DNA of 64,000 nt from Malus domestica. Lineage: Eukaryota > Streptophyta > Magnoliopsida > Rosales > Rosaceae. Positions within the stretch are counted from its first letter, which is position 1; each line of letters starts with the position of its first letter. Under the pieces are notes generated by a model, which was given only the letters and a program-made list of their open reading frames with translations, was not told the origin of the DNA and ran no database searches. Position numbers and translations under genes: made by a program. Positions 3,190 through 55,420 of this stretch are shown in pieces. The stretch is from positions 15,347,501 through 15,411,500 of the forward strand of contig NC_091673.1 of NCBI RefSeq assembly GCF_042453785.1, written 5' to 3'.

Positions 3190-3477
3190 CAAAAAGCTTA
3201 ATTAACCCCAAAATGTCACTTTGAGAGCACTACGCACTGCTTTCTTTATTTCATCACCATAAATTATCTACCTAGTAGAAAAATCTGAAACTTTTACACG
3301 AACATCCTTCAATTAGAATTACTTCAAAACTCGTCCATTTGATCAAAAATTGATCAAGAGGAAGTTGAATGTCCTACATTGAGAATATCAATCAAGGTAT
3401 CAAAATTTCACTAAAATAATCAATAAATTATAACTAAAAGTAAAGTAAAATATATAGCATAATATCGACTCATCAAT
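3190..3477. mobile_element. LTR fragment, diverged kin of the 40-49 kb Athila-like element
   Basis: This stretch aligns by eye with the last ~285 bases (plus-strand sense) of the LTRs at 41325-41608 and 48920-49202: shared 'gcactgctt', 'atttgatc', 'gtcctacattga' and the terminal 'actcatca'. It is well diverged, so it is an old fossil; no partner LTR or internal region is nearby. Confidence 0.6.
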
Positions 3478-20017: not shown

Positions 20018-20216
20018 AATCTCCAACTAAGCCGGGCAAAGGGCCATAGGCCAAAACGTGGCTCGTTTTGACACAAAACTCATCTCCAATAGAGGGCTGG
20101 GCCAAAAAATTTGGGACTCATTGGGCCATAAATCAACCAAATGGCTAGCGAGCTGGAATAAGAAAGACAGCAAGCCAGCCCAATTTTTGAAAGCCCAAAT
20201 GTGTCTAATGGTAGGT
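20018..20216. repeat. ~190-bp direct repeat, left copy
   Basis: Begins 'aatctccaactaagccggg' and includes 'cgttttgacacaaaactcat'. A same-orientation copy is at about 27577-27766, so the pair brackets PIF/Harbinger copy A. Probably a PIF-type MITE or a subterminal relic. Confidence 0.55.
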
Positions 20217-20830
20217 CATCTCCAACCGAAAGGGCTATGTTTAGCCCTTGTTCAGACTATAGATCTTCAAGAAATTTTTTTTTAATGAAAAGTGTCATGC
20301 CATATTTGTATACCATCTCCAACCGAAGGGGGCTAAAAAATAACCCCTCAATAATTTATTATTTTAAGTTTGTTCTTTAATTTATTGGTTAATTAAATTA
20401 AACTACGATATTAAAATAAGGTTTCCGAACATATTTTGAATGTCACTTGTTGCTAAATGAATAAGCTTGCGGATTTCTTGTCTTTACATAATTTCAATAA
20501 CTTTTCGGATAGGATTTTGAGTGACACGTGTCGCTAAATTGAGCAACTCTCCATATTTCTTATCTTTATGTAATCTTAATAATTTTTTTGATAGAATTTC
20601 GAGTGCCACATGTCGAGAAGTAATTGGTTATGCAAATTTTAGATAGGATTCTTATCTACATCATACTTTTTATCTTCAACTTCCAATGTTAATAAATTGG
20701 CTAGATATTGGGGTAGAATTCATACACATTCATCTTTGTCCTCTCCAATATCTCTTGTCATTGTCTAAAATTTGTTATTTCAATTAAAGTTTACAATGAA
20801 TTCCAACTTTGGGTTCTCTTCGCATTCTAA

Positions 20831-22140
20831 ATGGGGTTTTCATTCAATTTCGAATTGGAAGATAAATGGGCAGAGCGAAGACGAGAAGATGAGAAGTTCG
20901 ATGAAGAAGACGAAGCATGGCGCAATACAACATTTATGGCAGTAATGGTTGGGGCCATGGCGTGTGAGGAAATTCAAGAACAATCTCAATGGGGTGGTCT
21001 GTTGTTTGTCGCTCTTACAAACCATGAAAAAGATAGATCGCACATGAGACTCTGATGAACAACTATTTCAATTCAAACACAATGTAACCATAAGAGGATA
21101 TCAGACATTGCTTCCGGATGAGGTGTCATGTCTTCAAGTGTTTGCATCATGATGTCCAACATGTCAATCTATACTTTCGGCAGAAGATTGATAGAGCATG
21201 TCGCTCTGGTTTCTCACCTCACCAAAAGGTTATTGTTGCACTTCGAATGCTGGCCAATACCTCCCCAACTGATGCGAGCGATGATACATATGGTATGTTT
21301 GAGTCTACATGTCTTGATAATCTTGCTCAATTTTGTCACACAATTGTTCAAATTTTCAAAAAGAAGTACCTTCATATCAAGCAGATCTTGCTCGGCTCAT
21401 TTGCAAAGCTGAAGAATGTGGTTTTTTGGGCATGATATAGTCATTAAATTGCATGCATTGGCAATGGAAAAGCTATCCCACCATATGGCAATGAGGATTT
21501 AGCGGAAGATCAAGAAAGCCAACTATTGTGTTAGAGGCGGTTGCCACAGGGATTTGACATGCTTTCTTTGGAGTCCCAGGATCCCAAAATGACATTACAG
21601 TACTCATACATTCACCCCTCTTTAATAACCTGACGAATGGTGAATCACCTCAACAAGCGTCAACAATATGTGATATTACCTAGCAGATGACATCTACCTA
21701 AAATGGGTGATACTTGTCCAAGCAATTGCAAACCCTGTGGATGGCACCGAAAAGTGGTTTACCTTACAACAAGCGGCGTACCGGAAAGATGTTGAGAGAT
21801 ATTTTGGTATTCTATAAGCTTGATTGAAAATCATTAAAGAACCAATAAGAGGGTGGAGTCAAGATAAATTAAACTTCATCATGATGTCGCGCATTATATT
21901 ACACAACATAATTGTGGAGGATGAGCAAGATGACTATATTGATGAAAAGTTTGATGACGACTAATATGATCCAAATAGGACAAGGAGGGCTCATGTGAGA
22001 ATATATGATGGGCCTAATTTGCCTCTGTATGCAAGAACAACTAGCGTATCTTTAAATGAATACATAAGGCGTCATAGGATCATACATTCGCGTATCACAA
22101 ACAAATACTTACAACAGGATCTTGTTGCACATCTTTGAGC
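20831..22140 (+). pseudogene. PIF/Harbinger transposase (HARBI1-like nuclease), decayed
   Basis: DDE nuclease-type transposase, recognised by the run FRQKIDRACRSGFSPHQK and VALRMLAN (about 21175-21255), and downstream by WFTLQQAAYRKDVERYFGIL (about 21758-21820) and the tail KLNFIMMSRIILHNIIVED. The acidic N terminus EDEEFDEEDEAWRN-like stretch sits at 20860-20930. The frame is lost several times, for example a stop after HMRL at 21053 and after VVFWA at 21433, so no active protein is expected. Copy B carries the same gene inverted at 32060-30770. Confidence 0.8.
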
Positions 22141-22530
22141 CAAAAGAACAATGGAGTAGGCGTAATAAACCAAATGTTGTTTATGTTTCAATAACTCCCC
22201 TAAGTAATACTAGGGTGGAAATTATGTTATTATTTGTTAAATGTTGTTTAAGTTTCAATAACTCCCCCAAGCAGTACTTAAATATTAAAGACTACAATTG
22301 AAACTTAAATATTGTTTAAGTTTAATGCAAACATTTTCTTGCATTAAATAAAAGTCAAGACATCACCTTTCATCCACTAGCTTTTCTAGGTAAATGCTTC
22401 CAAAGTAAAAAAAGCAAGCGGACTCTTGCTTTTCTTTTGTAGCACTCCATATGGTCTACATCTTTCAATGCAGCCCGTCGAAAGGTGATCTCTCGACATG
22501 CTTTTCTTTTATACCACTCCACATGGTCTA

Positions 22531-22869
22531 TGTTTATACCATATTTAGGGCCTTCGTATTTAGACCTCGTATAAATACTCGGGGGACTCAAATGTAATTA
22601 TGTAATAAAGGAAGGGGTAAATATGTAATTAGGGGAGGAGCCCTTATTCTATAAAAGGGCATTTTCACCCTCACAATCCCTAAGCCTCTCCTATCTAGAA
22701 CAAAGCTCTCACACTCTCTCCCTCACAAATACTCTCAGAGAAATATAATCAGTGTGGACGTAGCCCAAACCTTGAGGTGAACCACGATACATCTTGTGTT
22801 ACTTACATTACTTGCAGATTCACGGTCGGATTTACGTTGTTCCAAGACCTCTGGAGTCGTGCATCAACA
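22531..22869 (+). repeat. 5' LTR
   Basis: Starts TGTTTATACC, ends GCATCAACA; TATA-like box at about 22648-22656. Near-identical partner at 25859-26196. Confidence 0.9.
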
Positions 22870-22995
22870 TTTGGCGCCGTCTGTGGGAATCGAAAAGTTG
22901 TGTCGATTCTCCTTCATTTTTTCACCTCTACCGTGAATCTGCAAAACCTAGAGACACAGAAAAAGAAAATTGTCCGTGTCCTACAATACGAAACT

Positions 22996-23265
22996 ATGGA
23001 TTCGAGTGCCTCAGTTCTCTTGTCCTCTCCATCAAAGCTCGAAAACCATCAGGAAACCAATAGCCATATCCAAAAGGGAGGTATTGCTCCTTTCATTGAC
23101 TCATCATATTTGCAAAAACAATCCCATGTCCCTACTGGTTTCATTTGGCCTGAACGACACTTGGTTGCTGCTCTTGAGGAGCTCAATGAACCATTGGTGG
23201 ATCTTAAGGGTTTCTTCAAGGGTGATGCTGTGGCAACCGAGCATGCTGCCAAACGTATTAGGGCA
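22996..23265 (+). pseudogene. GA20ox (fragment): Captured 5' part of a gibberellin 20-oxidase gene
   Basis: About 90 residues open with MDSSASVLLSSPSK and continue with SSYLQKQSHVPTGFIWPE, LNEPLVDLKGFFKGD and ATEHAAKRIRA. This is the N-terminal part of the oxoglutarate/iron dioxygenase family as seen in GA20-oxidases (the FIWP and PLVDLKGF landmarks are diagnostic). The similarity stops at about 23265, where normal GA20-oxidases continue with a CxxHGFFxVxNHG motif; the iron-binding core is absent. It sits in plus sense between the primer site and the repeats of the LTR element, so transcription from the LTR would produce sense GA20-oxidase leader RNA. Intact GA20-oxidases make bioactive gibberellin precursors in the cytosol; this fragment cannot. 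Confidence 0.85.
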
Positions 23266-24000
23266 TCGACGCCAATGGCAGCCTCAGCACCTCATTGCGC
23301 CACGACCTGGACGACATCAATGCCGCCGCTACCAAAGCCCTAGATCCCCAGGACCAAGATTCTCAATCTTCTACCTTGCCCACCCCCAAAAAACGACTTC
23401 GTCTTGGTGGTTCTGCCTCAGCAACCCCGCCCCTCGAAATCCATAGTCATCGGCATAATCTTCGGCTACCGCTGCGACCACGTATGGTTTGCATCCACCA
23501 CGACCGCCGCTCCACCAAACCCACCCTCCTCCTCGAGCTCTCGATCTCGACCCACCAGCTCGTCAATGAGATGCAATTAGGGCTCGTCCGCGTGACCCTC
23601 GAGTGCAACGAGTCAGACCACTCCTGACCGTCCCCATTTGGACCGTTCATTGCAACGGTCGTAAATTCGGGTTCGCGGCGAGAAGAAAAGCAAGTGAGAA
23701 GGTGAAATTGATGCTGAAGTTGATGCAGTCGGTGACGGTCGGAGCCGAGGGTAACGCCTGCTGGGTTCGCGCTTGGGTCAGAGGCGGAGTCACGTCAGGA
23801 GGTAATGTACATGATGGCAAATTACGATCACGTGGTGGGGAGCGCTGACTCGGAGTCGTGTTCGAGTCAAGAACTCAGTATCTTCCTGCTCCAGTCCAGG
23901 CACTCTTGGGGCTGGAGTACACCAGCTGGTTTTCAGACAGCAGAAAAAAGAAAAAGAGAAAAGAGAAAAGCAGATGTATGCCACCTGCTGGAAAAATGAC
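23266..24000 (+). other. Gene-like stretch of unknown origin in the LTR element
   Basis: GC-rich, exon-like sequence after the GA20-oxidase fragment. Frames contain LRHDLDDINAAATKALD (about 23293-23345) and VMYMMANYDHVVGSADS (about 23800-23850). I do not recognise the source. Codon use resembles host exons more than the AT-rich repeats that follow, so one or more further captured fragments are possible. Confidence 0.35.
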
Positions 24001-24378
24001 CTCGGGGAAGGCTAGAACGTGCAGGAAAAGAAAAAAAAACTTCTGTATCAAAAGCTACAGCCTCCCCCAAAGGATAGTTGTGGAGCCATCCATCCATCAG
24101 CTTGTCGAAAAAGAAAACAAAAGCAAAAGCAAAGCAGAAAAAAATCGAGAAAAAACAGAAAGGGAGGCACATAGGGACACTGCAAAAGCAAGGAATAAAC
24201 ATCCCACCAGAAAGATGTGATTTACTTTTCTTATTTTTGAATGATGTGTTTTATTTTTCGTATCTTTCTGAGATATCTATATAAACCCCATCAGAGGGTA
24301 ACAAAAAAAAAAAACGGCAAAGCCCAAAATAAATGGGCTGGCATGTTGTGGAGGGCGAAGCCCATAAGCCCAAAATAG

Positions 24379-24722
24379 CACCAACCAGGTGACCAAAAGT
24401 ACGTCCAGTACTCCACAATTAGGCAACCTGCCTCTATTATCACCAACCAGGTGACCTAAAGTACGTCCAGTACTCCAAAATTATTTGGCAACATGCCGCT
24501 ATTACCACCAACCAGGTGATGAAATGTACAACCCGTACTCCAATATCATTTGGCAACTAGCCATTCATGCCATCAACCAGGTGATGAAATGTACAACCCG
24601 TACTCTAATATCATTTGGCAACTAGCCATTCATTCCACCAACCAGGTGATGAAATGTACAACCCGTACTCTCCTTCATGCCACCAACCAGGTGATCAAAA
24701 GTACGCCTAGTACTCCAAATTA
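24379..24722 (+). repeat. Six ~64-bp tandem units
   Basis: Each unit starts 'accaaccaggtga' followed by 'gtacgtccagtactcc' or 'gtacaacccgtactc' and 'catttggcaac'; the last units are shorter. Internal to the LTR element. Confidence 0.9.
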
Positions 24723-24725
24723 TAC

Positions 24726-24935
24726 ATGAGCATTACTCATGTCATTCATACATAAACATTCATGAGCATCACTCATGACAATCATACATAAACATTCATG
24801 ATCATCATTCATGTCAACATTCATGAGCATCACTCATGTTAACATTCATAAGCATCACTCATGACAACATCCATAAGCATCACTCATGTTAATCAACATA
24901 AACATTCATGAGCATCACTCATGACAATCAGCTTC
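24726..24935 (+). repeat. Hairpin-type tandem repeat 'catgagcatcactcatg'
   Basis: Seven or eight units of about 25-30 bases, each containing the self-complementary word catgagcatcactcatg or a close variant. Internal to the LTR element. Confidence 0.85.
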
Positions 24936-25039
24936 AAAAGCTTCATTTACAGAGCTCTAGCTTTAAAGCTTCATTTGCAAAGCTTCACCTACAAAGCTTC
25001 AATGCAGGGTATACAAATACCACATCTGAACAACCGCCA

Positions 25040-25645
25040 CTTCGGCCCATACATGGATTCAATTTTAAGTCTCCAGCCAACAGACTCTATTGACTGAAGA
25101 CTTGGGGGACTACATTATGTACCATATATTAGGCCTCAACTGGGCCTCATGAAAAATACTTTGGGGACTTAGCCCATTATTTATGTATTAAGGAGCGAGC
25201 CCTTATTCTATAAAAGGGACTCCCTCACTTTCATTAGAGAGCACCCATTATTTATGTACTGATGAGCGAGCCCATATTTTATACAAGGGACTTCCTCACC
25301 TTCATTAGAGAGCAACGCCGCTAGCTGAGCAACCGCCTCACCGCGAGCATTACTCCTAGCCCATCACTTATATATTGAGAAGCGAGCCCTTATTCTATAA
25401 AAGGGACTCCCTCACCTTCATTAGAGAGCAACGTCGCCAGCTGAGCAACCGTCTCACTGCGAGCATCACTCCTAGCCCATCATTCATGTATTGAGGAGCA
25501 AACCCTTATTCTATAAAAGGGACTCCTTCACCATCATTAGAGAGCATCGCTGAGCAATTGTCTCGCTACGAGCATCGACTCTAGCCCATCATATATGTAT
25601 TAAGGAGCGAGCTTTTATTCTATAAAAGGGACTCCCTCACTTCCA
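25040..25645 (+). repeat. Internal LTR-like start plus array of LTR promoter-like units
   Basis: 25040-25112 repeats the polypurine-side sequence found at 25786-25858, ending in 'gaagacttgggggactac', and 25113-25230 resembles a diverged LTR beginning. It is followed by units of about 70-120 bases, each with a TATA-like block near 25200, 25271, 25387, 25503 and 25613 ('cttattctataaaaggg' or variants), matching the TATA block of the LTRs. Confidence 0.75.
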
Positions 25646-25858
25646 ACGCCACAAACCGAGCCAACCAAGGCAACATAAGCCACAAGCAGAGCAGCCTCGC
25701 AACATGTGCTACTTTTGGTTGAGCATCATTTTGGATTAGGCACCACCTCATACCGAGTATCAGTCCTAGACAACATCTAGTTACTTCAGCCCACACATGG
25801 ACTGAATTTCAAGTCTCTAGCCAAAAGACTCTATTGACTGAAGACTTGGGGGACTACT

Positions 25859-26196
25859 GTTTATACCATATTTAGGGCCTCCGTATTTAGACCTCGTATA
25901 AATAGTCGGGGGACTCAAATGTAATTATGTAATAAAGGAAGGGGCAAATATGTAATTAGGGGATGAACCCTTATTCTATAAAAGGGCCTCTTCACCCTCA
26001 CAATCCCTAAGCCTCTCCTATCTAGAGCAAAGCTCTCACACTTTCTTCCTCATAAATACTCTCAGAGAAATATAATCAGTGTGGACGTAGCCCAAACATT
26101 GAGGTGAACCACGATACATCTTGTGTTATTTACATTTCTTGCAAATTCACGGTCGGATTTACGTTGTTCCAAGACCTCCGGTTTTGTGCATCAACA
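25859..26196 (+). repeat. 3' LTR
   Basis: Partner of 22531-22869, same ends, TATA-like block at about 25968-25986; followed by the GTCTA duplication. Confidence 0.9.
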
Positions 26197-26393
26197 GTCT
26201 ACATCTTCAAACAACATGTGAAGGGAAAACATTTTGTGAGAGTTTTTCATTACTTGTTAAAACGCTAATAGAAATTACTGACACAGAAAAATCTTGTATT
26301 TTATTTCATTTTCAATTTAAAGACAATAACAACTTAAATATTAAAGACTTCAACAACTTAAATTTAAAAACTACAACAACTTAAATTTAAAGG

Positions 26394-27345
26394 CTACAAC
26401 AAATGATTATAATAATGATCTTCATCCGTCATTGTAGGAGTATAGTCGGATGTTGTAAACAACTCCTGTCGGGCCATAATTTTCCTTTTTTTCCTATCAA
26501 AATATGCCTTACTCATTGGAGTATAATTCATACTATCCATTTCCATGTTCTTATCATCCATCTCTTCTTGTATTTGTTTTGCCCGTTCTTTATGTCTACG
26601 CTTCATTTCTTCCGCGACAATGACATTTTGCTCCGCCATTAATCGCATTGAGGAGACCATTTCCTCTCGAAAGGTTAACTCTTCATTTTCCATGCCCTTT
26701 TCCTTAATTTTCTAGCCTTGTTTCATCTCATAGCCTTAGGTATGGAAGATTGACCTGGAGACGGATTTTCTAGTCTTGTTTCTTCAATGATAGGAGATAC
26801 TTATTCATCCCCAATTGTATTTGAGGAAACATTTCCGAACACTGACGTAGGACCAAATCTTTCTTGAGGTGAATTTTGAAATAACATCCACTTTTTACAA
26901 ATTTTCCAACAACCTTGATGAGTAAAGGGTTATTTCATGTCATCCATATACAATTGCTCCGCTTGGCGTTCCTAGAAAATATAATTACAAAAATTAATTT
27001 ATGAAACTAATATTTAAAAAACTTGTGACAATACTTACTTTGTCGTATAGATTGGCTCTGCTTTCATGTCTCATTTCGGCCGTTATCATGTCTTGATGCC
27101 ATTTATTCAACCTTGGATGAAGATGTTTTTTCCATTGTGAAGAACAACTCTCATGGTTTCTGGGGTTCGGTGGAGTGATGCCTTTGTAGAACTCATAGTG
27201 CTTTTTGGATGTACGAGTCAGATTCCTTCATTTGTTTGAGAAATACCATTGACACTATCTTCCGAAACTCATCTATAAGCCTTGCAAAGAGTTTCCATCT
27301 TCTTTTCGGATCCAAACCTTTCTTTTGGTTGAAGATGTGGTCATT
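26394..27345 (-). pseudogene. Pong-type ORF1 (Myb/NAM-associated), copy A
   Basis: The 3' part is open (26693-26394, 99 codons): charged, helical sequence with ENEELTFREEMVSSMRLMAE and ELFTTSDYTPTMTDEDHYYN. This is the C-terminal part of the Myb-like/NAM-associated partner protein that Pong-like PIF elements need beside the transposase. An upstream exon-like part reaches about 27345. Same gene in copy B at 29405-29990. Confidence 0.65.
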
Positions 27346-27576
27346 TGAAAATTATTGAAAAAATTAAAAGAAAGATTATTGGAGAGGTAAGAGAATAGAA
27401 TGTGAAGAATTGAAATAAAATGGTATAAGATGGTATGGAATGGTGAAAATGATGCGAGAAATGGCTTAGGTATTTATTAAAAAAAAATTAGAGTTTAAAT
27501 TTCATCTTTTTTTTTTAATTCCAACGGTTACATGACGTCAACTAGCCGTTTCTAGTTGGCATCAAGATGACATCAT

Positions 27577-27766
27577 GTTTGGCCATCCCCAATTGAGCTG
27601 GCCAAAGGGTTATAGGCCAAAACATAGCCCGTTTTGACACAAAACTCATCTTCATATAGGATTGGGGTAAAAAAAATTGGGACGCACTGGGCCATAAATT
27701 AGCCAAATGGTTAGCGGGCTGGCCAAAGAAAGCCAACTAGCCCGATTTTTGAAAGCCAAGAATTGA
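27577..27766. repeat. ~190-bp direct repeat, right copy
   Basis: Same orientation as 20018-20216, with 'ggccatccccaattgagc' at the start and the shared 'cgttttgacacaaaactcat'. Confidence 0.55.
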
Positions 27767-29214
27767 ATAGTTGCCTGGCCGTAATTTATTCTTGAATTTT
27801 CTTATCAAATTAAAGTAAAGTTGTGTTCTTAATTTGCGAGACATCAAAATAAAAGTTTTAGAGAAATTAAGGGCGTGTTCGGTAACTTAATGCAAAACAA
27901 TTTTTGAACAACTGTTGTGTAAAACGAAAAGGGCAAATAAAATTTTACATTTTTATGATTTCTTTTGCTAGTTTAATATCTTAGAATGAGTTTTGAGAAT
28001 AAAAACTTTGAAAACGCATATGGTACCAATACTTATAATGTCATAAAAATATAAACTTGTGTGTTGGTAGTAATGGTGCTATTGGTGGCAGTGATGGTGG
28101 TTGAGATGAGAGTGGCAGTGGCAGATCCAGGAAATAATATTAGGGGGGGTCAGTAAGAATAGTGCTTGCAACGCGCAAATTTTTTTTACCAAAAATAGCA
28201 TGCATATCGCCATTTCATCGAGTCTTGTTAGGCGTGAAGTTATTTGGAAATGTATACTGCACACTTGTTAATGCTTCATTTGCGAGGGTAACTAACATGT
28301 TCCAAGACTGCTCCCATATAAATGCTTAACAAATAAACAAATTTATCTTGAACACACTAATAATGTTTGATATCATTGCATCCCATTAATATGTTTGTCC
28401 AAAAATGATGATGTTGGAGGGCATGTATGAAGCCAACTCTAATCTTCAAAAGGGCAGCATCCAAGGTATCCATAGACATTCATCGAAGTTCGGAAGGTCA
28501 GCAACCAAGGTATCCATGAACGTTCACCGAAGTTCGAGGCATTTGCCACTAGAGACTGGTGTTGGTAGCAATGGTGGTTGGAGTGGTGGTAAGAGTGAGG
28601 GTAAATAGTGAAGGTGGTAGTGGCCATGATCAGGGTAATGGGGTGGAGAATGTGGTGGGACGTGGTGGTGGTAATGAAGGTGGCCGCAACAGTGAAACAG
28701 CTGAGGTGGTGGTGGCGACGAGGTGCATGTGGTGTAGTCAAGGTGAGATTGTGGCGGTGGTGTTGGCTGCAATAATGAGACCGTAGAGGTGGTGGTGTCC
28801 ATGGTTGTGACTTGCGAGGGTGATAATGATGGTTGACATGATCACGGTCGTGATACTCTAACTTTGTTTTATAATGTATCTTTTTTTTCTTATTTTGAAA
28901 ATTGATGTTGGGTATGGTCTGCCACTTTTGGTGTTACGTTATGTTTCAACGTGCAACTTCTTTAATATCAATCTAATCTCAGCCGCCGTATTTGATCCAA
29001 CTGTCTTAAAACGCAGTGCACAAGACATTTTGCCTAAAAGGGTCCGCTATTCCCAGTTTGAGTTTGCCACTATTTTCTCCCTCCACTTCCTCCAAAAATC
29101 AAAATTAACGTTAAATCTTATCACGTGCACACCACCTGACTCTCCTTTGAGGACCAAAGCGTCACTTCGCTAGCCCTTCAGACACAAAAACTATAGAATC
29201 ATACATATTTGCAT
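27767..29214. other. Intron spacer between the Harbinger copies
   Basis: No gene seen. 28550-28810 is rich in ggtggt words (simple-sequence-like), which produces long proline/histidine or glycine/valine frames on both strands. Near 28120-28160 'ggcagatccaggaaataata' with a G run resembles the start of a repeat also seen near 52780-52810. Confidence 0.4.
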
Positions 29215-29390
29215 ATTTTTACATTTTAGAAATTTAAGGTTTTCAATTATTTTAAAGAATGAAGCGTTTGAACTACCCTCACATGTTGTGCACATGCTTC
29301 CATTTAACAAAAATTTGGATGGAATGAATGAAAAATTAATAGCATGGGGCAAATTAGCAAAAAACTAAAATAAAATTTAAGTCTATAATT
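29215..29390. mobile_element. Fragment related to the 914-bp foldback
   Basis: 'cacatgttgtgcacatg..' followed by 'ggatggaatgaatgaaaaat' and 'ggggcaaattagc' matches one arm of the element at 5157-6070, diverged and truncated. Confidence 0.6.
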
Positions 29391-29404
29391 TTTGTAATTA
29401 CATT

Positions 29405-29990
29405 TTCTAGGAATGCCAAGCGGAGCAATTGTAAATGAATGACATGAAAAAACCCTTTACTCATCAAGGTTGTTAGGAAATTTGTAAAGGGTGGGTGTTA
29501 TTTCAAGCTCCACCTCAAGAAATATTTGGTCATACGCCGGTGTTCGGAAATGTGTCCTCAAATACAGTTGGGGATGAAGAAGCTTCCCCTATCATTGAAA
29601 AAAAAATTAAGGCTAGAAAATCCGTCTTCGGGTCAATCTTCCATACCTAAGGCTATGACACGAAACAAGGCTAAAAAATTGAAGAAAAAGTTCAAGGAAA
29701 ATGAGGAGTTAACTTTTCAAGAGGAAATGGCATCCTCGTTGCGATTAATGGCGGATCAAAATGCCATTACCGCTAAAGAAAGGAAGGGTAGACACGAAGA
29801 ACGGGCAAAACAAATATAAGAAGAGATAGATGATAGGAGCATGGAAATGGACAATATGAATTATACTTCAATGAGTACGGCATATTTTGATAGGAAAATG
29901 AGAGAAATTATGGCCCGACGGGAGTTGTTTACAACATCCGACTATACTCCTACAAAGGCGGATAAAGATCATTATTATAATTAGTTGTTG
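29405..29990 (+). pseudogene. Pong-type ORF1, copy B
   Basis: Contains ENEELTFQEEMASSLRLMAD and ELFTTSDYTPTKADKDHYYN as in copy A. A stop follows RAKQI at about 29817, and the frame continues afterwards with EEIDDRSMEMDNMNYTSMS, so it is broken. Confidence 0.65.
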
Positions 29991-30266
29991 TAGTCTTTAA
30001 TATTTAAGTTGTAGTCTTTAAATTTAAATTGTAGTTTTAATATTTAAGTTGTACTCTTTAATATTTAAGTTGTTATGGTCTTTAAATTGAAACTTAAACA
30101 AGTAATGAAACTTTAACAACATGAAACAAAATACAAGATTTTTCTGTATCAGTAATTTCTATCAGCGTTTTAACAAGTAATGGAAAACTTTCACAAAATG
30201 TTTTCCTTTCACATCAACAAGCATGCTGTTTGAAGATGCAGACCATGTGGAGTGCTACAAAAGAAA

Positions 30267-30465
30267 GGATAAGGATCCTCTCCTGAGCAGATGGAGAGGA
30301 TCCTCCTGACCAGGCTCATCGGGCCATTCATTTTTTATCCAACGGTTATAATTATTATAACTTTTAGAGGGGCCCCCTGTTTGTAGCCGTTGGATAAAAA
30401 ATGAACGGCCCGATGGGCCTGGTCAGGAGGATCCTCTCCATCTGCTCAGGAGAGGATCCTGGTCC
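30267..30465. mobile_element. 199-bp Mutator-type MITE (foldback), copy 2
   Basis: Terminal inverted repeats of about 77 bases, nearly perfect (aggatcctctcctgagcaga and its complement), with ends GGA..TCC and a perfect 9-base duplication CAAAAGAAA (30258-30266; 30466-30474). Copy A of the Harbinger element has the empty site 'acaaaagaaaagcaagag' (complement near 22420-22435), confirming the insertion. The centre shares 'aggggccccctgtttgtagc' with copy 1 at 3694-3892. Confidence 0.92.
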
Positions 30466-30769
30466 CAAAAGAAAAGCAAGAGTAGGCTTGCTTTTTGACT
30501 TTGGGAACATTTATCTAGAGAAGCTAGTGGATGAAATGTGATGTCTTGCCTTTTATTTAATGCAAGAAAATGCTTGCATTAAATTTAAACAACATTTAAG
30601 TTTCAATTGTAGTCTTTAATATTTAAGTACTACTTGGGGGAGTTATTGAAACTTAAACAACATTTAACAAATAACAACATAACCTCCACCTTAGTAATAC
30701 TTGGGGAAGTTATTAGAACTTAAACAACATTTGGTTTATTATGCCTACCCCATTGTTTTTTTAACCCAA

Positions 30770-32060
30770 AGATGTGCAACAAGATCCTATTGTAGGTACT
30801 TGTTTGTGGTACGCGAACGTATCATCCTATGACGCCTCATGTATTCATTTCAAATTAGGCCCATCATATATTATCGCACTAGCCCTTCTTGACTTATTTG
30901 GATCATATTGGTCGTCATCATACTCTCCATCAATATAGTCGTCTCGCTCATCCTCCACAATCATGTTGTGTAATATGATGCACGACATCATGATGAAGTT
31001 TAGTTTACCTTGACTCCACCTTCTTGCCAGTTTCTTAATGATTTTTCACTATGCTTGTAGAATACCGAAAGCTCTCTCAACATCTTTCCAGTACGCCTCT
31101 TGGTGTAAGGTAAACCACCTTTCGGTGTCATCCACAAGGTTTGCAATTGCTTGGACAAGTGTCGCCCACTCTGGGTAGATGCCATTTGCTAGGTAATACC
31201 CCATATTGTACTGACGCCTGTTGAGGTGATTTACCCTCCGTCGGGTCATTAAAGATGGGTGAACGCCCGAGTACTATAATGTTTGGGATCCTATGACTCC
31301 AAAGAAAGCATGTCAGATTCATATGTCAAACGAGGTAACCGCTTCTAAAACAATAGTTAGCTTTCTCGATCTTCCACTAAATCCTCTTTACCATCCGGTA
31401 GAACAGCTCTTCCACTGCCAATGCATACAATCTAATAACCCTATCATGTCCGGAAAGTCACGTTTTTCAACTTTACGAATGAGCCGAGCAAGATCTGCTT
31501 GATTTGGTTCACGAAGGTACTCCTTTTTGTAAATCTGAACAAATTGTGTGACAACATTGTGCAAGATTATCAAGGCATGTAGACTCAGACATACCATATG
31601 TTTCATCCATCGCATTAGCTGGAGAGGCATAGGCCAATATTCGAAATGCAATAGTAACCTTTTTATGAGGTAAGAAACCAGAATAGCTTGCTCTATCAAT
31701 CTTTTTCCGAAAGTATGGATTGACATGTTAGACATCATGAAGCAAACACTCGAAGACATGACGCACCATTCAGAAGCGACGTCTGAAATCCTCTTCTGGG
31801 TACACTGTGTTGGAGTTGAAGTAGTTGTTCATCAAAGTTTCATGCAGATCTCTCTTTTTCGTGGTCTGTAAGAGCGACCAACAACAAAGCCACCCAATTG
31901 AGATTGTTATTGAGTTTCCTCACATGCCATGGCCCCAGCCATTGCTACCATAAATGTTGTGTTGCGCCATGCTTCGTCTTCTTCATCGGACTCCTCATCT
32001 TCTCGTCTCCGCTCAGCCCATTTATCTTCCAGTTTAGAATTGGATGAGGACCCTCAGTTG
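30770..32060 (-). pseudogene. PIF/Harbinger transposase, copy B, decayed
   Basis: Same HARBI1-like protein as at 20831-22140: LLLHFEYWPMPLQLM-type frame (31650), RWFTLHQEAYWKDVERAFGI (about 31070-31130) and the conserved tail. Several stops and shifts. Confidence 0.75.
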
Positions 32061-33277
32061 GAATTCATTGCAAACTTGAATTGAAATAACAAATTTTAGT
32101 CAATAACAAGAGATATTGGAGAGGGCAAAGATGAAGGTGCGAATTCTACCCCAATATCTAGCCAATTTATTAACATTGGAAGCTGAAGATAAGAAGTGTC
32201 ACGTAGATAATAATCTTATCTAAAATTTGTATAACCAATTACATCTCGACACGTGGCAGTCAAAATCCTATCTAAAAAATTATAAGATTACATAAAGATA
32301 AGATATATGGAGAGTTACTCACTTTAGCCACACGTGTCATTCGAAATCCTATCCTAAAAATTATTGAGATTATATAAGGATAAGAAATCCAGAAGCTTAT
32401 TCATTTAGGAACAAGTCACACTCAAAATATGTCCGAAAACCTTATTTTAATATGGTAGTTTAATTCAATTAACCAATAAATTAAAGAACAAACTTAAAAT
32501 AATAAATTATTGAGGGGCCTGACACTGTTCAATAAAAAAAAATTCTTGTAGGGCTATAATTTGAACGGGGGCTAAACATTGTTCTTTCGGTTGAAGATGA
32601 TCTACTATATATTTCTTATCTATTTGGTTAGTCTGAGAAGTCATAGAAGGCTGGAAATGCTCCATCAACAACACTATTAATTGATTTCTTGAAGGCTTGG
32701 TACAAGGGATATTCAGACATCCTCCTTTTGGAAGAAGACATGAATTTCAATTCACGAGCTGCTTCTCTATCTATAAGTTATATGGTTTTCTCTTCTGGTC
32801 TGACTCAGTAAATCATTGTTCAATTCCTCGAAAGTAATATTAGTTCTAACGGAAATGCTCAACAGGAATGAATTTTCTGTTTTCAAGATTCCGAAGTACC
32901 TCTTGAAAACATCCAAAATTTCCAATTCTACGACAATATACGCTTGGTCTTTGGTATGCCATTTTCGAGTTGATATCTTGTGATGTATCTGTATTCTATT
33001 AACTTACTTTTAGGAAATCTGACAACGTGGAAGTTATCTCCTTGTTTCAACGGATATAGCAGCCAGAGGGGTTGACCTGCCAGACACTACTCATATATAC
33101 AACTTTGATCTGCCAAGAACTGCTGTTGATTATCTTCATCGAGCTGGAAGAACAGGTAGGAAACCGTTTTCAGACAAGAAATGCTCTGTTACCAACATTA
33201 TAATGTCCGAGGAGCGGTTTGCTTTGCAAAAATATGAAAACGAGTTGATGTTGAACTGTGAAGAGGTAATTGTATAG

Positions 33278-40141: not shown

Positions 40142-41608
40142 TGATAGGATTTTTACTACTCATGTGAACGGGCTTAAATCTCCTATTTTACTTGCAAGAA
40201 TCACAAGGTTATTGTAGTATAAACGGATCTCGCAATGTCGTCTCCACAGGGACTATTAAATAATTCGAAACTAATCAGATTCCATTTAATTATTGTAAAG
40301 TAGAAGTTTAGGTGATTGATTTTATAACCTAATTAAAATAAAAACGAAATTAATGAATTAAAATAAACAATCTGCAATATTAGAGCTAGAGAGAAAAGAA
40401 AACAGTTTTGGGAGAATAAAATTAAGAAAGCACTGGGGTTCCACCATCACCTAGCAATCCTATGAATTTTTACCAATTACTTATGATCTACATATGCCAC
40501 TTTGAAGGTTAGATTTTCCTAATTCATATTCTACTTGGAACCTCCAACATAGAACGTATATCTAACATGCAACCCGTCCGGACGTTCGGATCAAATTTGA
40601 ACATGAAAGACTCATTATGCTTTATGAAAATCCTTTGAAAAACCATGCAATCCTTAAGACGTGATATTCATCATAAGTGAAATTACAATTATTAATCACA
40701 AGAAGCCAGCGTCAATTTCAGGGAAACTTCCGACCAAAATTGCATCAAATTACTTTTCTAAAGATTCTAATGGTGATCAGGCATTAAGACAATTAGATAG
40801 TTTTTATCCTAGTAATTAACAATTCAAAGTATGCATGCAATCAATCATAAGCAATTAAATAAAAATCACATATTCATGCTAAGGCTCAAGGCTTCGCCCT
40901 AGCAAAAGAAATTAGTTCCGCATACTCATAATTGAAATCATAGAAAATATATTCAAGAAAATGATTGAAAACACCTTCAAGTAGAAAATCTCTAAAACCC
41001 TAACAATTCTCTCTGTCTCCAAAGTTGCATAAAATAAAGCGTAGAGAAAAATTGTAGACGGCCAAGCAATAAATCTGCTAAGCCCCCACACAAACCCTAG
41101 GAAACTAAAATTAATAAAAAAAACCAATAAATTAGGAAACATAACCTTAAATTAAATGGTAAAATTCGTCTAAAATCTGAACAGCCACGTTTTTTTACCC
41201 ATAAGCTGCTCCAAAACTGGCCCAATATAGCTGGATTTAATGTTTGGAATATTCTGAACACTTCTCCATAAGGCCACGAACCCATCCGAGGTCATCTTGG
41301 GCTCCAAAAATGCAATTTAAGCCCAAAAACGTCATTTTCCAACACTGCGCACTGCTTCTTTATTTTATCGCCACAAAATAACCGCCTGGTGAAAAAATCC
41401 CAAATTTTGATATGATCAAGCTAAGTGACTCACGAACGTCCTCCAACTGGAATTACTCCAAAATTTGTCCATTTGATCCTGTTTTGCTCCAGAGGAACTC
41501 GAGAGTCCTATATTGAAAATACAATTCAAAGTATCAAAATTCTTCCAATATATTAACCAAAATATACTAAGATTAGGGTAAAATATATAATATAAAATCT
41601 ATTCATCA
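40142..41608 (-). repeat. 3' LTR (element sense)
   Basis: Near-identical to 47735-49202; bordered by GTATG on the left and the polypurine tract on the right. Confidence 0.92.
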
Positions 41609-43129
41609 AATACCCCCAAACTTAGCTTTTTGCTTGTCCTCAAGCAAAACAGAATAAAAAAAAAACAACAATGAAACAATAGACCTTCCATAAATTAACC
41701 TCAAAGCAATCTAGGGACGGTCACCAAACTTAAGAGAATTAAACAATTTTCAAAATAAAATTAACCAAACCTTACACAACATTCTCAAGCGTAATGAGTG
41801 ACATAACCAATATCAATACAACTTACTCAACCCGGATAGGTATATGCAAACCAAAGCTTCCACTTCAAATCCTCTACCATGAATATCACTCACAAAGGAA
41901 TCACACATTAAAGGGTAGAGTGTTTCACTCAAATCATGATAAGCAATATAAAACCCCATAAGCTTGCTCTTCATCTCATCTCTTCACTAATGTAAATCAA
42001 TGCAACACCAAAGATCAAAGGTCTTTACAAGGGTTGTAACATTAGGCTAGGGTATGGGCTATCAAAGAAAGGATAGGGAAAAACTAAAACTTAAGAAATA
42101 CCAAGATATCTTCATAATGTAATTCAGTCGGCCCTCTTTTGAAACTTGAATCTTCTATTATTGGCGTCCAGGACTCATGTCATAAAGATGGAACAATTTC
42201 GAACTCTTCTTTTCTAATTTTTTTTTTTAAAGAATAAAAATAATACTAGACATGGTACCTCGGTACACGCCACTTCTTATTGTAGAACCCAACCTTTATC
42301 TTCCTTGATGTCCACTTGGTATCCCTTAAGTTATAGGGTATGGCTAAAATAGGTTAAATGTGTAGGGATGAATGTGGGTGATGAAAGAAAAGGCTAAGTG
42401 TTTGGCTTCAAAAGGGTAACTAGGGAAAATGAAACATAAAAAGGTGGTTAGAAAGGCTCAAACGATCCAAACATGGCCTTTATCATCTCTCTAATGTTGC
42501 ATGACTTAGGATTTCGCCTCGAGAGATATTGAAGCAAGTTCTAGTGAATGATAATGCTATCATGAAACTCACAAGAAAGAATATGCAAGAGGCTCAAAAT
42601 CTCACAAGGGTTCAATAAGTTTTCACTTTAAATCCATATATAGTTCTCTAAGTAAGAGATAATCATATTGACATTGGTTATTGGTTTAAAATAAACTTGA
42701 GAATGATCATGTAAGAATCAGATTAACCATATAAAACAATTGAATTTCCACAAAAGAAGAACCAATTCAAATAAGTTTGTTGACCTAGAAGAAAGCGAAT
42801 TATTATCATTGACTTATGGAAGGTCTAACTAAACGACTAAAGAAAAAGAAAATCTTTTTGGATTTTTGACATATTTCAATTTTTTTTCCTTCTTTCCAGC
42901 CATATAAAAACCATGAAAAACTAAGATTTACTTTCCCACCCCCAAAACTTATTTCACACTTTGTCCTCAAGGTGTGGAAAAATAAAAGAAACTAAATAAA
43001 CTAAAAAGAAACAAAACTAGAAAAGACAAAACAACAACCTAGACTAAATAAACTAGAAAAAAAAAATTATAAAAGAATCACCTGATTCGAAATCTAGACC
43101 TAGGGCCATGGGAAAAGATCATGGTGTGA

Positions 43130-44340
43130 CCACCTTTTAGCCTTGACAAAGAACACGTGGCAGCCATAGGGTTTGAAACCCAACGTGCAAAACAAAGGTC
43201 CAATATGAACATTTGATTCCCTTGAGATGAATGGGATGCAGCTGGCATCCTTGAGCACCGAGCCGAACGGCTCTTCTCCCCCTTTAATTCAAACCAAGTC
43301 TATCAGACATGGGACAACTCCAGCTGTGTACACGTAGCGCACATCACTGCATTAAGCTCCTTAGGATTCCAAAAGAACGGCTAGATCACTCTTACTTTTC
43401 TGAAGGCTTTGTAAACCGCAGGTCTCTCGCATTTCAACAGAGACCGAAAGAAGTCTTTCATTTCTCTCAGCCCCTATGTCGTTACAAAATGAAAAATAGC
43501 TCTCCATCTCTCACAGTTTTCTCTCATTTCCCCAATTCATCTATGCTCTCTTCTTCATTACTCTCAAAAACGCAAGAACCTTCTATCTCTTTAGAAAATC
43601 AGCCTCCTCCTCTCTCGTAATAGCACCAACCTTGCACCCTAAACCACACAACGATACTCACTCTTCTCGGCAAGAACCCCAAACCCACGCCTCTATCATA
43701 GAAATGGTAGCACATTTGAAGCTCAAATCTTCCCACAAAGGTAATCTTCGTCCGTGTTCCCTTTTTTTTTTCTTTTTTTTTGAGTCTTTGAGTAACTGGT
43801 TGAACACCATGGTTCTGTGACTGATGCATATTGGTCTCAGGTCTGTGTATAGTATGAATGTGCAAATGTCCATGACCTGAAAGCTCTGCAACGGCTATGG
43901 AAAAGGAACAACAACAAAGACTGTGCAGATCCGGTTCCTGCAAAGGTAAAAATCTTGTACTCCGTTCATGATGGGTTCCATTCCGTGAGACCGTTGCTTC
44001 ATTATGCCTGCATGTAAGTATACTAGTGTCGTATTTGTGTGCACAGGTTTTCGATCTAGAAGCTTAACCCTGACAAGGAAAATTCAAACCAGCTGCAACC
44101 TTGCAAATCCAAATCTTGCAAAGGTAAAATTTTATTCTGATGACCCCCCATTTGTGAAAATGCTGCCCATTACCCCCTGGATGTAATTAGACTGGTGTGG
44201 TATTTTGTGCAGAACAAGCGGATCCATGATAAATCCGAGGGAAAGAAGAGGGTGGACAAATATCAGTTTCAATAGACAAAAACGGCACAAGCTTCCAAGA
44301 GCCCAGATCGGTGCATCTGGGAGGTAAAATTTCATAACCT
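43130..44340 (+). other. Antisense, intron-like segments inside the Athila-like element
   Basis: On plus (antisense to the element) several exon-like pieces are followed by donor-like 'aag|gta' (near 43738, 43945, 44123, 44321) and preceded by acceptor-like 'tgtgcag' or 'ggtctcag' (near 43840, 44046, 44211). The pieces have no domain I recognise. It could be a captured host transcript region, an antisense unit of the element, or chance. Confidence 0.3.
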
Positions 44341-44893
44341 TGCAAGTTTAATTGTTGTAGATCTGGTAATAATAGTTGTACTCAGTTCTGTGGTGTATGG
44401 ATCTGTGATTTAACTGTGCCTCTCCTCCATGCATCGTAAAACTGAGCTGCAGAAAATGAACTGCTCAAAATTATGTTTCTGTGCTAGATCTGCAACAATC
44501 ACCCCCAAACTTGCATCTATGAATGACTGCTTTAAATTTCCAGCATAGTGTAGATGTGGGTGATGTTAATGTAGATTTGCTGCTGGGTGCATGATTCCAA
44601 TATATGATGCTCTTTATTTTCCACGTTGGCAACCTGCAATTAACAAAGATGCGTTAAAATAAAATAAAATAAACTAAAATAAACTGGGTAAATAAAATCA
44701 ACCTGCAATTTTCCATTTTTGAATTTTTTTTGTTGTTTTTTTTTTTTGTTTTTCATTTTTTTTTTGTGTGTGTTTTTGTTAAAGTCAAAATCAAACGAAA
44801 AATAAGATTAGGAAAGAGTTTAGAAAAATTGGGTTGCCTCCCAATTAGCGCTTTATTTTAAGTCTGTAGCTAGACGTTGCGGAAGTCCGGTGG

Positions 44894-47573
44894 CTAGATC
44901 ATTGGTTCGTTCAGAGTCAAAGACTCGTATGCACCAAATTTCCCTATGCATGGTTTTAGTTGATGTTTGGTAACCTTGAATGAGAAATCTGTGCCCTCAG
45001 CCTTGATGTCCACATTACCATTCTGAAAAACTTTAGTAACTAGAAAATGACCTTTCCATCGAGACTTTTGTTTTCCTGGAGATGATTTGAAATAAGAACT
45101 TAACAACCACACTTTTTTACCAAGCTTTATTTTTGCACAACTTGGACTGCTTTGCAATTTTTTATTGCCCTTGACATTCAAATGTTTTTGGTCAATCTGG
45201 TGGCAAATCACATTTTGAGTCTTTATGGGCAGCTTGCTAGTAGATGATCTGGTCACAAAATTGGCATGTGGTAAACCATTTAATACATCAACACGCATGC
45301 ATTCTTGCTTGTCACTTGAATGTATGCTTGCTTCAAACAACTTGAAAACAACAGTTTGATCTTCAACCCGGAATGTTAATGTTCCGGCTTCCACATCAAT
45401 AAGAGTTCGGGCTGTTGCTAGGAATAGGCGGCCCAAAATGATGAGTGTTGTCAAATCCTCATCCATGTCCAACACCATAAAATCAGCCGGTAAATATAAA
45501 TTGTCAACCTTCACAATAACATCTTCAATGACTCTTCTAGGGTAGATAATTGAACGGTCAGCCAATTGAATAATACTGGAGGTTGGCTTCAGCTCACCTT
45601 CACCTAAACGTTTAAAAACAGAATAAGGCATTAAGTTTACACTAGCACCTAAATCAATTAAAGCACTTTTAAAATCAGAATTGCCAATAGTACAAGAGAT
45701 AGTAAAACTCCCTAGATCTTTTTTCTTTAGAGGCAATTTATGCAATAAGACCGCACTGCATTGTTCTATTAGAATTACTTTCTCAGAATCCACAAGCTTC
45801 TTTTTCTTTGTACAAACGTCCTTCAAAAACTTGGCATAAGATGGAATGTTCTTGATTGCATCAATTAATGGAAGATTAATTTGAACTTTAGCTAAAGTCT
45901 TTATGAAATCTGTCAACTGTTGATCTTTAGTTTTAGGTTTCAACCTTTCGGGATAAGGCATAGGAGGCACATAAACACGTTCTGTAGTTTTTGTGATAGC
46001 TTCTGCAGTATTTTCGGATCTGTCTTGTGGCTGCCCAGAAGCTGCTGAAATTGCAGAATCTGCAAAAATTACAATTTTAGTTTGGGGCAGTTCTGCTGCC
46101 CGCGAATTTCCAACAGAATTTTCATGTCCGTTGTCATAACTTTTGCCAGACCGTAAAGTCCGAACCGCGTTGCATTCTTCTCGCCCTCTTGGATTAGGTA
46201 CTGTTTGACTAGGAAATGTACCCGGTGCTCTTTCTGAAACCTGCAAAGCAATCTGCCCAATTTGTTTTTCCATGTTTTTCATTGCTGCCTGTAGATTTTG
46301 GATTTCTTGAGTGGTAGTATTTGCTAATTTTTCAATTGCAACCTCCCAAGCAACCTTTGGTGCAGCAGGTTGTTGTACCAACTGTTGAAATTGAGGCCTA
46401 GAGTGCTGATCTTTGTCCCACTTTAAATTAGGATGATCTCTCCAACCTGAATTGTAGAAATTTAAATACGGGTCATATCTGGGACGCTGGAAATTGTTAA
46501 ATGCAATAACCTACTCTGCTGTAAAATCTGGACAAACGTCTTTATGTGGGCAGCTCGTAAAATCGTGAGTTATCATGTTGCAAATGCTACAAGCAACTTG
46601 TAAGGGCTGCTGTACAGCAACCTGTGAACCTGGTATTCTTTGTAATAACATGTCAAATTTTGCATCAAGCCTTTTCTCCATTTTTTCAATTTGTGCTGCA
46701 ATATATGGAGAGCCGTTAGACATCTCAAAAACAGACCTAGATTGTGGCTGCTCAACTGTCCACGGTTGTGTATCTGCTGCCATTCTTTCAAATAACAAAC
46801 AAGCCTCTTGTGCATTTTTATCTTTGTGCGAACCTCCGCATGAAGCGTTGACAAGAGTTTTTATAGTCATATTCAACCCTCTGAAAAATATATGCATTTG
46901 ATCAGTAGTGTTAATACCCGAATGTGGACATTTTGTAATCAACTCTTTGAACCGTTCCCACGCCTCATGAAACTCTTCATTTGGTTTTTGGGCAAATGAT
47001 AAAATCTGAGTTCTTATGTCAAGAGTCTTTGAAGCTGGATAATACTTGTTTAAAAAAATTTCACTGAGTTGGGCCCAAGTTGTAATGCTTCCAGATAGGA
47101 GTGTGAGAAGCCATCTCCTTGCTTGATCTTTCAGAGTGTAAGGAAGTCAACGGAGCTTAATAGATTCGGCTGAAAATCCTCTCACCAAAATATTTTTTGC
47201 ACCCCATTAAAAATTCTGCAATATGCATGTTTGGATCATCAGATGATAACCCATGAAATGTAGGTAGAATATTCAACATGTGTTGCTTTATTTCAAATGT
47301 AGACCCTTCCTCCACTGCCGAATAAGTAATACAATTTGGTATATTTGTGGTATGGGCTGTCAGTGAATCACGCAGGGGCAGACCAGCCTCTAGAATTACA
47401 AATGTCATTTTTTCTTTGCTGTGCAGGTCTCCAAAATTTAAAGACTGTAGAAAAGTTCCCTGCAGAGGAGGAACCCTCTGCAAAGTTTGCTCCCTGCGTT
47501 TCCTCCTTAAATTCTGCTCAAGTTCTGGATCAAGTGGAATCAATTTCTGCACTGTTGAACGGGTGCTGACCAT
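44894..47573 (-). pseudogene. Athila-like gag/protease region (fossil)
   Basis: Starts with MVSTRSTVQKLIPLDPELEQ near 47573; the middle has gag-type sequence (KNAQEACLLFERMAADTQPW) and the longest open part (46381-44894) carries a retropepsin-like stretch around DLGASVNLMPYSVFKRLG and ends in sequence like an integrase C-terminal tail (KSRWKGHFLVTKVFQNGNVD). Family: Athila branch of Ty3/Gypsy. Broken at a small number of points. Confidence 0.8.
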
Positions 47574-47710
47574 GCACAGATTTATGAAATCTGCACTACT
47601 GTACTGTTGTAATCTGTAAATATAAAATAAAAACGAAAATTAATTTTTTTTATATGTATAAACAGCAATAACTAATCGAAAATCTGATTAGAAGGAATTA
47701 TTTTGAATAA

Positions 47711-47728
47711 TCCCCGGCAACGGCGCCA
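47711..47728 (-). other. Primer binding site (tRNA-Asp)
   Basis: Minus-strand TGGCGCCGTTGCCGGGG matches the complement of the 3' end of plant tRNA-Asp, the usual Athila primer, a few bases inside the 5' LTR. Confidence 0.9.
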
Positions 47729-47734
47729 TTTTCT

Positions 47735-49202
47735 TGATAGGGATTTTACTACTCATGTGAATGCGATAAAAACCTCCTATTATACTTGCAAGAATCACAA
47801 GGTTGTTGTAGTATAAACGGATCTCGCAAGATCATTCTCCACAGGGATTATTGAATAATTCGAAACTAACCAAATTCCAATTACTTATTGTAAAGTAGAA
47901 ATTGAGATGATTGATTTTATAACCTAATTAAAATAAAAACAAAATTAATGAATAAAATAAACAATCTGCAATATTAGAGCTAGAGAGAAAAGAAAACAGT
48001 TTTGGGAGAATAAAATTAAGAAAGCACTAGGGTTCCACCATCACCTAGCAATCCTATGAATTTTTACCAATTACTTATGATCTACACATGCCACTTTGAA
48101 GGTTAGATTTTCCTAATTCATATTCTACTTGGAACCTCCAACATAGAACGTATATCTAACATGCAATCCGTCTGGACGTTCGGATCAAATCTGAACATGA
48201 AAGACTCATTATGCTTTATGAAAATCCTTTGAAAAACCATGCAATCCTTAAGACGTGATATTCATCATAAGTGAAATTACAATTATTAATCACAAGAAGC
48301 CAGCGTCAATTTCAGGGAACCTTCCGACCAAAATTGCATCAAATTACTTTTCTAAAGATTCTAATGGTGATCAGGCATTAAGACAATTAGATAGTTTTTA
48401 TCCCGGTAATTAACAATTCAAAGTATGCATGCAATCAATCATAAGCAATTAAATAAAAATCACATATTCATGTTAAGGCTCAAGGCTTCGCCCTAACAAA
48501 AGAAATTAGTTCCGCATACTCGTAATTGAAATCATAGAAAATATATTCAAGAAAATGATTGAAAACACCTTCAAGTAGAAAATCTCCAAAACCCTAACAA
48601 TTCTCTCTGTCTCCAAAGTTGCATAAAATAAAGCGTAGAGAAAAATTGTAGACGGCCAAGCAATAAATCTGCTAAGCTCCCACACAAACCCTAGGAAACT
48701 AAAATTAATAAAAAAAAACCAATAAATTAGGAAACATAACCCTAAATTAAATGGTAAAATTCGTCTAAAATCTGAACAGCCACGTTTTTTACCCATAAAC
48801 TGCCCCAAAACTGGCCCAATATAGCTGGATTTAATGTTTGGAATATTCTGAACACTTCTCCAGAAGGCCACGAACCCATCCGATGTCATCTTGGGCTCCA
48901 AAAACGCAGTTTAAGCCCAAAAATGTCATTTTCCGGCACTGCACACTGTTTCTTTATTTTATCGCCAGAAAATAACCGCTTGATGGAAAAATCCCAAATT
49001 TTGATAAGATCAAGCTAAGTGACTCATGAACGTCCTCCAACTGGAATTACTCCAAAATTCGTCCATTTGATCATGTTTTGCTTCAGAGGAACTCGAGAGT
49101 CCTATATTGAAAATACAATTCAAAGTATCAAAATTCTTCCAATATATTAACCAAAATATACTAAGATTAGGGTAAAATATATAATATAAAATCTACTCAT
49201 CA
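47735..49202 (-). repeat. 5' LTR (element sense)
   Basis: Partner of 40142-41608; outer flank GTATG at 49203-49207. Confidence 0.92.
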
Positions 49203-50998: not shown

Positions 50999-51475
50999 TG
51001 TTGGATTTTAGGGTATTTTTGGTATTTTGCTTATTAGGGTTTGCTTGAGAGTTTACCATATAAACCATGCTTTGTATTAGGGTTTGATCAATCATCGAAT
51101 AAAATGTTCTTTCTTATACTGTTTGACTTGGTATCAAGAGCAGTCCGTTTGGACCTGTCTCTGAACCACTGCGCTGCCTAGATCACGCCACCACTATCGG
51201 AACATCACTGCACTGCACCGCACTGACGAAGCCCAGATCACTGATCGCACCACCACCATCGGAATGTCACTGCACTGCACTTCTGTCCTTTCTCTGATGA
51301 AGCCTAGGTCGCTGATCGCACTACCTTGATGCTATTTGTTGTTCCTGCCTGTCTGAACTAATTGTCGACTTGTTGCTGCTACTACCTGATTAACCACCGC
51401 CACCAGATTTGAATTTGTACCGGCCTGCACAACCAACACATCAGGTATCTCTTTGTTACGACCTTCATTGTGAAC

Positions 51476-52366: not shown

Positions 52367-52384
52367 GGCTCGATCATTAGTTTC

Positions 52385-52492
52385 GTTCCAGTCCAGTTAA
52401 GTTTGCAAGTCAAGTCAAGTTCGTAAGTTGGTAAGTTTGCAAGTCAAGTCAAGTCAAGACAAGTTAAGTCAAGTTCGTCAATTCGCTAGTTC
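52385..52492 (+). repeat. 'caagtcaagt' short tandem repeat
   Basis: Run of aagtcaagtcaagttcgt-type words between the gag stop and the right LTR of the small LTR element. Confidence 0.8.
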
Positions 52493-52916
52493 GTCCATGT
52501 AGCAAGGCTTGCATGCTCGCTTGATGGGGTTTGAATCCACATTTGCTTGTAGACAAACTCATGTCGTATACCGTCATGAGTTTGACGACATGAGTTTGAC
52601 GGGGGATGTTGGATTTTAGGGTATTTTTGGTATTTTGCTTATTAGGGTTTGCTTGAGAGTTTACCATATAAACCATGCTTTGTATTAGGGTTTGATCAAT
52701 CATCGAATAAAATGTTCTTTCTTATACTGTTTGACTGTTTGTAACTGTTTGAAGTAAGTTGCTTAATTAGCATGTGGCCAGTGGAGGATCCAGAATTTCA
52801 AGATTGGGGGGTCTCAAGATAAAAGTTCAAAAAAATATATTAGACTAGTTTGGTTCCATATCACTATTTTTTATTGAATTTGGTTCATTGAATAATCAAA
52901 ATTAATCAACCACATC

Positions 52917-55373: not shown

Positions 55374-55420
<47 letters not shown>

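Follow-up and report, generated by a model that had tools for sequence, protein, structure and literature searches.

We identified an LTR element of 3,666 bp at positions 22531-26196 of the 64-kb window (the whole stretch of DNA analysed), and consider it very probable (∼0.87) that it represents a non-autonomous LTR retrotransposon, lacking any recognisable gag or pol and bearing the 5′ end of a GA20-oxidase gene together with a nearly whole DUF617/MIZ1-type domain, in sense order and located where gag usually starts. This capture reading is based on the LTRs, the target-site duplication, an unoccupied site, two homologies (that to GA20-oxidase being to presumed reference sequences) and a change of composition at the junction of the first piece. 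The capture of GA20-oxidase sequence had already been proposed in the initial annotation and is retained here; as the only captured gene it does not stand, because a DUF617/MIZ1-type piece adjoins it downstream. The features of the element are as follows.

22526-22530, no strand: left copy of the target-site duplication GTCTA, flanking the 5′ LTR
22531-22869, plus strand: 5′ LTR, TG...CA, 339 bp, with a TATA-like module CTTATTCTATAAAAGGG at 22643
22870-22889, plus strand: primer-binding-site-like TTTGGCGCCGTCTGTGGGAA, directly 3′ of the left LTR (candidate only)
22996-23265, plus strand: probable captured coding piece for the N terminus of a GA20-oxidase, 90 codons without a stop (presumed references)
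23266-23343, plus strand: continuation of the GA20-oxidase frame, 25 codons and a stop
23266-23445, plus strand: stretch between the gene pieces, 180 bases, G+C 0.57 as in the DUF617 piece
23446-23891, plus strand: probable captured DUF617 domain (PF04759/TIGR01570, MIZ1-type), nearly whole length
24376-24723, plus strand: tandem array, period mostly 65 bp
24714-24950, plus strand: tandem array, period 25-36 bp
25039-25137, plus strand: internal remnant of a purine tract with the start of the LTR, 86 % like 25783-25881
25173-25640, plus strand: 116/71-bp tandem array with five LTR TATA modules
25843-25857, plus strand: polypurine-tract-like GACTTGGGGGACTAC, directly 5′ of the right LTR
25858-26196, plus strand: 3′ LTR, TG...CA, 339 bp, matching the 5′ LTR at 320 of 339 sites
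26197-26201, no strand: right copy of the target-site duplication GTCTA, flanking the 3′ LTR

The element has the paired direct TG...CA LTRs, the target-site duplication and the unoccupied site of an LTR retrotransposon, and the matched LTRs with a perfect GTCTA duplication described in the initial annotation were recovered, with 320 of 339 sites identical and GTCTA on both sides. Aligned without gaps, the LTRs differ at the other 19 sites (12 transitions and seven transversions; K2P distance 0.058) and the copy is therefore not recent. Plant substitution rates used for dating run from 1.3 × 10−8 to 4 × 10−9 per site and year, from which an age of 2.2 to 7.3 million years would follow if these rates applied to the host. 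For the primer-binding-site-like sequence, a 23-base stretch had no exact match in the viral_contigs collection, the 64-kb window contained no tRNA genes for comparison and a literature query with its letters returned no match. The Pfam scan covered all 32 ORFs of ≥ 40 aa listed for 22500-26200, a few of which extend beyond the element; none contained a retroelement domain, gag included, and three matched DUF617. As no retroelement domain is present in the ORFs scanned, the element looks non-autonomous, which agrees with the earlier claim to this effect, and the absence of gag and pol from these 32 ORFs is LARD/TRIM-like. A single copy of the element was seen.

The unoccupied site is provided by an inverted repeat that encloses the element, with a left arm at 20208-26996 (element included) and a right arm at 29386-32608; with the element left out, the arms are 82.4 % and 83.1 % similar in two aligned blocks. 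On the opposite arm the site is continuous at 30243-30239 (CCACATGGTCTGCATCTTC), representing the unoccupied paralogous state, and the counterpart of GTCTA reads GTCTG. The left anchor of this alignment is short, since the alignment holds for 28 bases before the break and a similar motif, with GTCTACATCTT, recurs nearby in the left flank at ∼22431-22464. For the inverted repeat itself (20208-32608, arms of ∼3 kb), a foldback or a long-TIR transposon are candidate origins.

The frame 22996-23343 consists of 90 GA20-oxidase-like codons followed by 25 unrelated codons and a stop at 23341-23343, and G+C climbs from 0.46 to 0.57 at the 23266 junction between the GA20-oxidase piece and the sequence downstream. 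As references we used sequences that we take to be the GA20-oxidase proteins of a rosid, Arabidopsis and rice. Local scores against their N termini were 108, 72 and 66, respectively, whereas the maxima reached in 2000 shuffles were 54, 51 and 48. The piece scored 45 against a more distant dioxygenase (PDB 6lsv), less than the shuffle maximum of 47 for that protein. When tblastn was run across the window with a seed threshold of 11, the best match of all three presumed N termini was 23005-23259 (E-values of 2.6 × 10−9, 4.3 × 10−4 and 4.9 × 10−4). The full presumed Arabidopsis AtGA20ox1 also had its best window match in the 22996-23265 segment (E-value of 5.4 × 10−4 or 0.005, by setting), and this was its one significant match in the window, covering residues 2-83 or 11-83. 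The catalytic 2-oxoglutarate/iron domain is absent, the next-best AtGA20ox1 matches (E-values of 0.12 and 0.24) lying outside the element. With default seeding, tblastn of the window with the presumed GA20-oxidases missed the segment in one run and found it with the rice sequence alone in another, which we take as a seeding effect. In a six-frame control, the five remaining frames yielded a single match at an E-value of 10 or better (6.3). The earlier claim of a GA20-oxidase N terminus of ∼90 codons, in sense and with its own ATG, is thus upheld by the shuffles and the window-wide tblastn, both with presumed references.

The piece also contains an N-terminal FIWP...EL..PL.DL region, which we assume to be a GA20-oxidase motif. 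In alignments to the presumed Arabidopsis GA20-oxidase, the solved gibberellin 3- and 2-oxidases begin only at residue 78, so in this comparison they do not share the FIWP region; the alignments of several further plant dioxygenases begin at residue 38-41, and that of one at residue 23. By itself, the FIWP region is not proof of a GA20-oxidase. Among simulated sequences, 3.7 % had a frame open for 90 codons by chance. At this value the idea that selection maintains the open frame was dropped, and the case for GA20-oxidase therefore rests on homology, not on openness.

That the GA20-oxidase-like frame is instead an ancestral ORF of the element, a remnant of gag whose likeness arose by chance, would be in keeping with its location at the expected start of gag, and searches of Pfam, NCBIfam and PDB (phmmer) with the 22996-23265 piece gave no GA-oxidase match. 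We regard this as highly improbable, however, since the shuffle scores, the window-wide tblastn and the six-frame control all favour GA20-oxidase, the ORFs scanned have no gag domain, and the adjoining DUF617 piece shows that the element carries host sequence. The sole family line in these Pfam scans was an unrelated chance match far below its cut-off (11.7 bits vs 24). Relatives of the piece were sought in the viral and prokaryote collections, where 55 and 132 pattern matches were obtained and none was confirmed, and a literature query with peptide letters returned noise among the matches listed.

The second captured piece contains at least three frame changes (frames 1, 0, 2 and 0). Scored in separate frames, it gave Pfam values for DUF617 of 41.9, 45.5 and 20.6 bits (cut-off 22.6, the third being below it), which were colinear on the profile at 15-57, 63-105 and 122-158 of 159; the separate-frame scores for TIGR01570, 40.7 and 42.5 bits, were both below the cut-off of 109.55. 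A read-through was assembled by hand, with frames picked to follow the domain. It covers 1-158 of 159 profile positions in Pfam with 141.3 bits and 1-160 of 161 in TIGR01570 with 140.9 bits (same cut-off), a score that, given this choice of frames, is no independent addition to the separate-frame matches. The pieces of the match are separated by gaps of ≤ 19 bases, and there is therefore no intron-sized gap. Furthermore, third-position G+C tracks the frame switches, being 0.90 for frame 0 at 23485-23574 and 0.70 for frame 2 at 23665-23754; at 23800-23889 it is 0.67, 0.50 and 0.33 for frames 0, 1 and 2, respectively. MIZ1 is presumably a member of this family (MIZU-KUSSEI1-type). A function of MIZ1 in root hydrotropism has been described (PMC12107133). 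The stretch between the two gene pieces is possibly the upstream part of the DUF617 donor, and no Pfam or PDB match was obtained for 23295-23486. A third captured gene at 23266-23445 was considered and is unsupported, as Pfam and PDB were without a match.

The pieces may have been captured through RNA, either when reverse transcription switched templates to host mRNAs packaged with the element or by read-through transcription and subsequent recombination, both being routes put forward for LTR elements of other plants. The element would have been copied by the enzymes of an autonomous relative. Helitrons and Pack-MULEs typically carry several gene pieces side by side, a pattern that would also fit a later insertion of such an element, or a DNA repair event, into an existing LTR element. 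Both gene pieces share the orientation of the element, however, and a repeat search, sensitive to longer repeats only, found no inverted repeats of ≥ 20 bp in 22500-26200, which makes a later insertion improbable. Genes transduced by LTR elements are described as usually having the same orientation as gag and pol (PMC7264820).

Capture of several genes by one LTR element is already known in plants, and the pairing of GA20-oxidase with DUF617 is a further case. With two gene families found in it, the present element is similar to Bs1 of maize, an LTR element described as holding segments of unrelated host genes, three in number, and no full-length ORF (PMC13317346). The captured genes of Bs1 are others, though, as is its host plant, and its chimeric gene is reported to be transcribed and translated, whereas for the present element a chimeric product is merely predicted; here, moreover, the GA20-oxidase frame stops 25 codons past the junction, before the DUF617 domain. 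GmaRetroS15 and the gene-bearing TRIMs of soybean and Medicago are likewise LTR elements of small size, non-autonomous and flanked by duplications of 5 bp, and GmaRetroS15 of soybean is said to hold pieces of three genes (PMC4717578). The length given for gene-bearing TRIMs is 1,172-1,449 bp (PMC4717578), whereas the present element, with its long tandem arrays, measures 3,666 bp and by size is not a TRIM. Host genes inside LTR elements have also been surveyed in rice (672 cases) and sorghum (1,343 cases), in a paper whose main text contains no mention of gibberellin or DUF617 (PMC3726574). Judged by titles and the beginnings of abstracts, the literature searched held no earlier report of a GA20-oxidase capture or fragment in transposons, and none pairing DUF617 with a retrotransposon was found. 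If the family includes copies of different ages, comparing both breakpoints with the exons of the donors would reveal whether plant LTR elements acquire host genes by template switching on spliced mRNA.

The sole ATG within 22650-23000 is that at 22996, the first after the LTR TATA module, and it has an A at −3 and a G at +4. In a leader of 311 bases 4.0 ATGs would be expected, and the probability of none was 0.016 in simulation. Retroelement leaders are often without ATGs ahead of gag, which suggests that the GA20-oxidase piece replaced the start of gag; a leader without ATGs would by itself show no selection. Because the GA20-oxidase ATG is the first after the TATA box, an LTR transcript would first encode a chimera of 115 residues, without a catalytic core. 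Transcription begun in the 5′ LTR would include both gene pieces, with the truncated chimera translated first, and this position of the GA20-oxidase start allows an unambiguous test of whether RNA or peptide arises from fragments of this kind.

A hairpin origin of small RNAs was considered and found no support, as RNA of the GA20-oxidase segment folded no better than shuffles: its hairpin was not of unusual stability, since 140 of 200 shuffles folded at least as well (z = 0.54). Small RNAs would therefore depend on transcription of the antisense strand or on an RNA-dependent polymerase. The likeliest present role of the element is that of decaying passenger sequence, and the copy as it stands looks like one more decaying capture; a possible role is that of a source of small RNAs against the donor genes. 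It is very improbable that the element alters gibberellin synthesis, either as such a source or as a chimeric gene. This would draw on the position of the fragment, which lies in sense behind an LTR promoter, on the unique small-RNA loci reported for 85 of 672 captured genes in rice and 812 of 1,343 in sorghum (PMC3726574), and on the description of captured sequences as reservoirs of siRNAs in maize (PMC13317346). Against it, the self-hairpin is not unusual, the piece comprises only a 90-codon N terminus of GA20-oxidase, and the divergence of the LTRs indicates a copy that is not recent. Very improbable is a multicopy, transcribed, Bs1-like chimeric family with the GA20-oxidase fragment as first ORF, whose RNAs or small RNAs would influence both gibberellin synthesis and a MIZ1-type growth regulator at the same time.

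The 3′ half of the element is made up of tandem arrays with periods of 65, 25-36 and 116/71 bp. Three of the TATA modules in 25173-25640 are exact, one has one mismatch and one has three; placed in tandem ahead of the 3′ LTR, the five could possibly serve as an extra promoter array.

Additional features were observed elsewhere in the window. Two identical 130-bp direct repeats at 50999-52736 surround a copia-type gag ORF (51413-52366; Pfam Retrotran_gag_2) and leave little room for pol, and this unit looks like a recent gag-only LTR element. A gypsy-type element at 40142-49202 has LTRs of ∼1.47 kb at 95.8 % and a gag on the minus strand (46511-47146), adjoined by an ORF of 538 aa without a Pfam match. 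The gag is overlapped by an Rfam match to snoR71 on the plus strand (46916-47020), perhaps a chance or repeat-derived match. The sequence at 3297-3475 shares 77 % similarity with the gypsy-type LTR ends (41431-41609 and 49025-49202) and constitutes an old LTR remnant. Finally, a DDE_Tnp_4 transposase remnant, presumably Harbinger-type, was found at 55354-55866, and a short-chain dehydrogenase exon (Pfam adh_short), which we take to be likely 3-ketodihydrosphingosine reductase, at 1062-1811.
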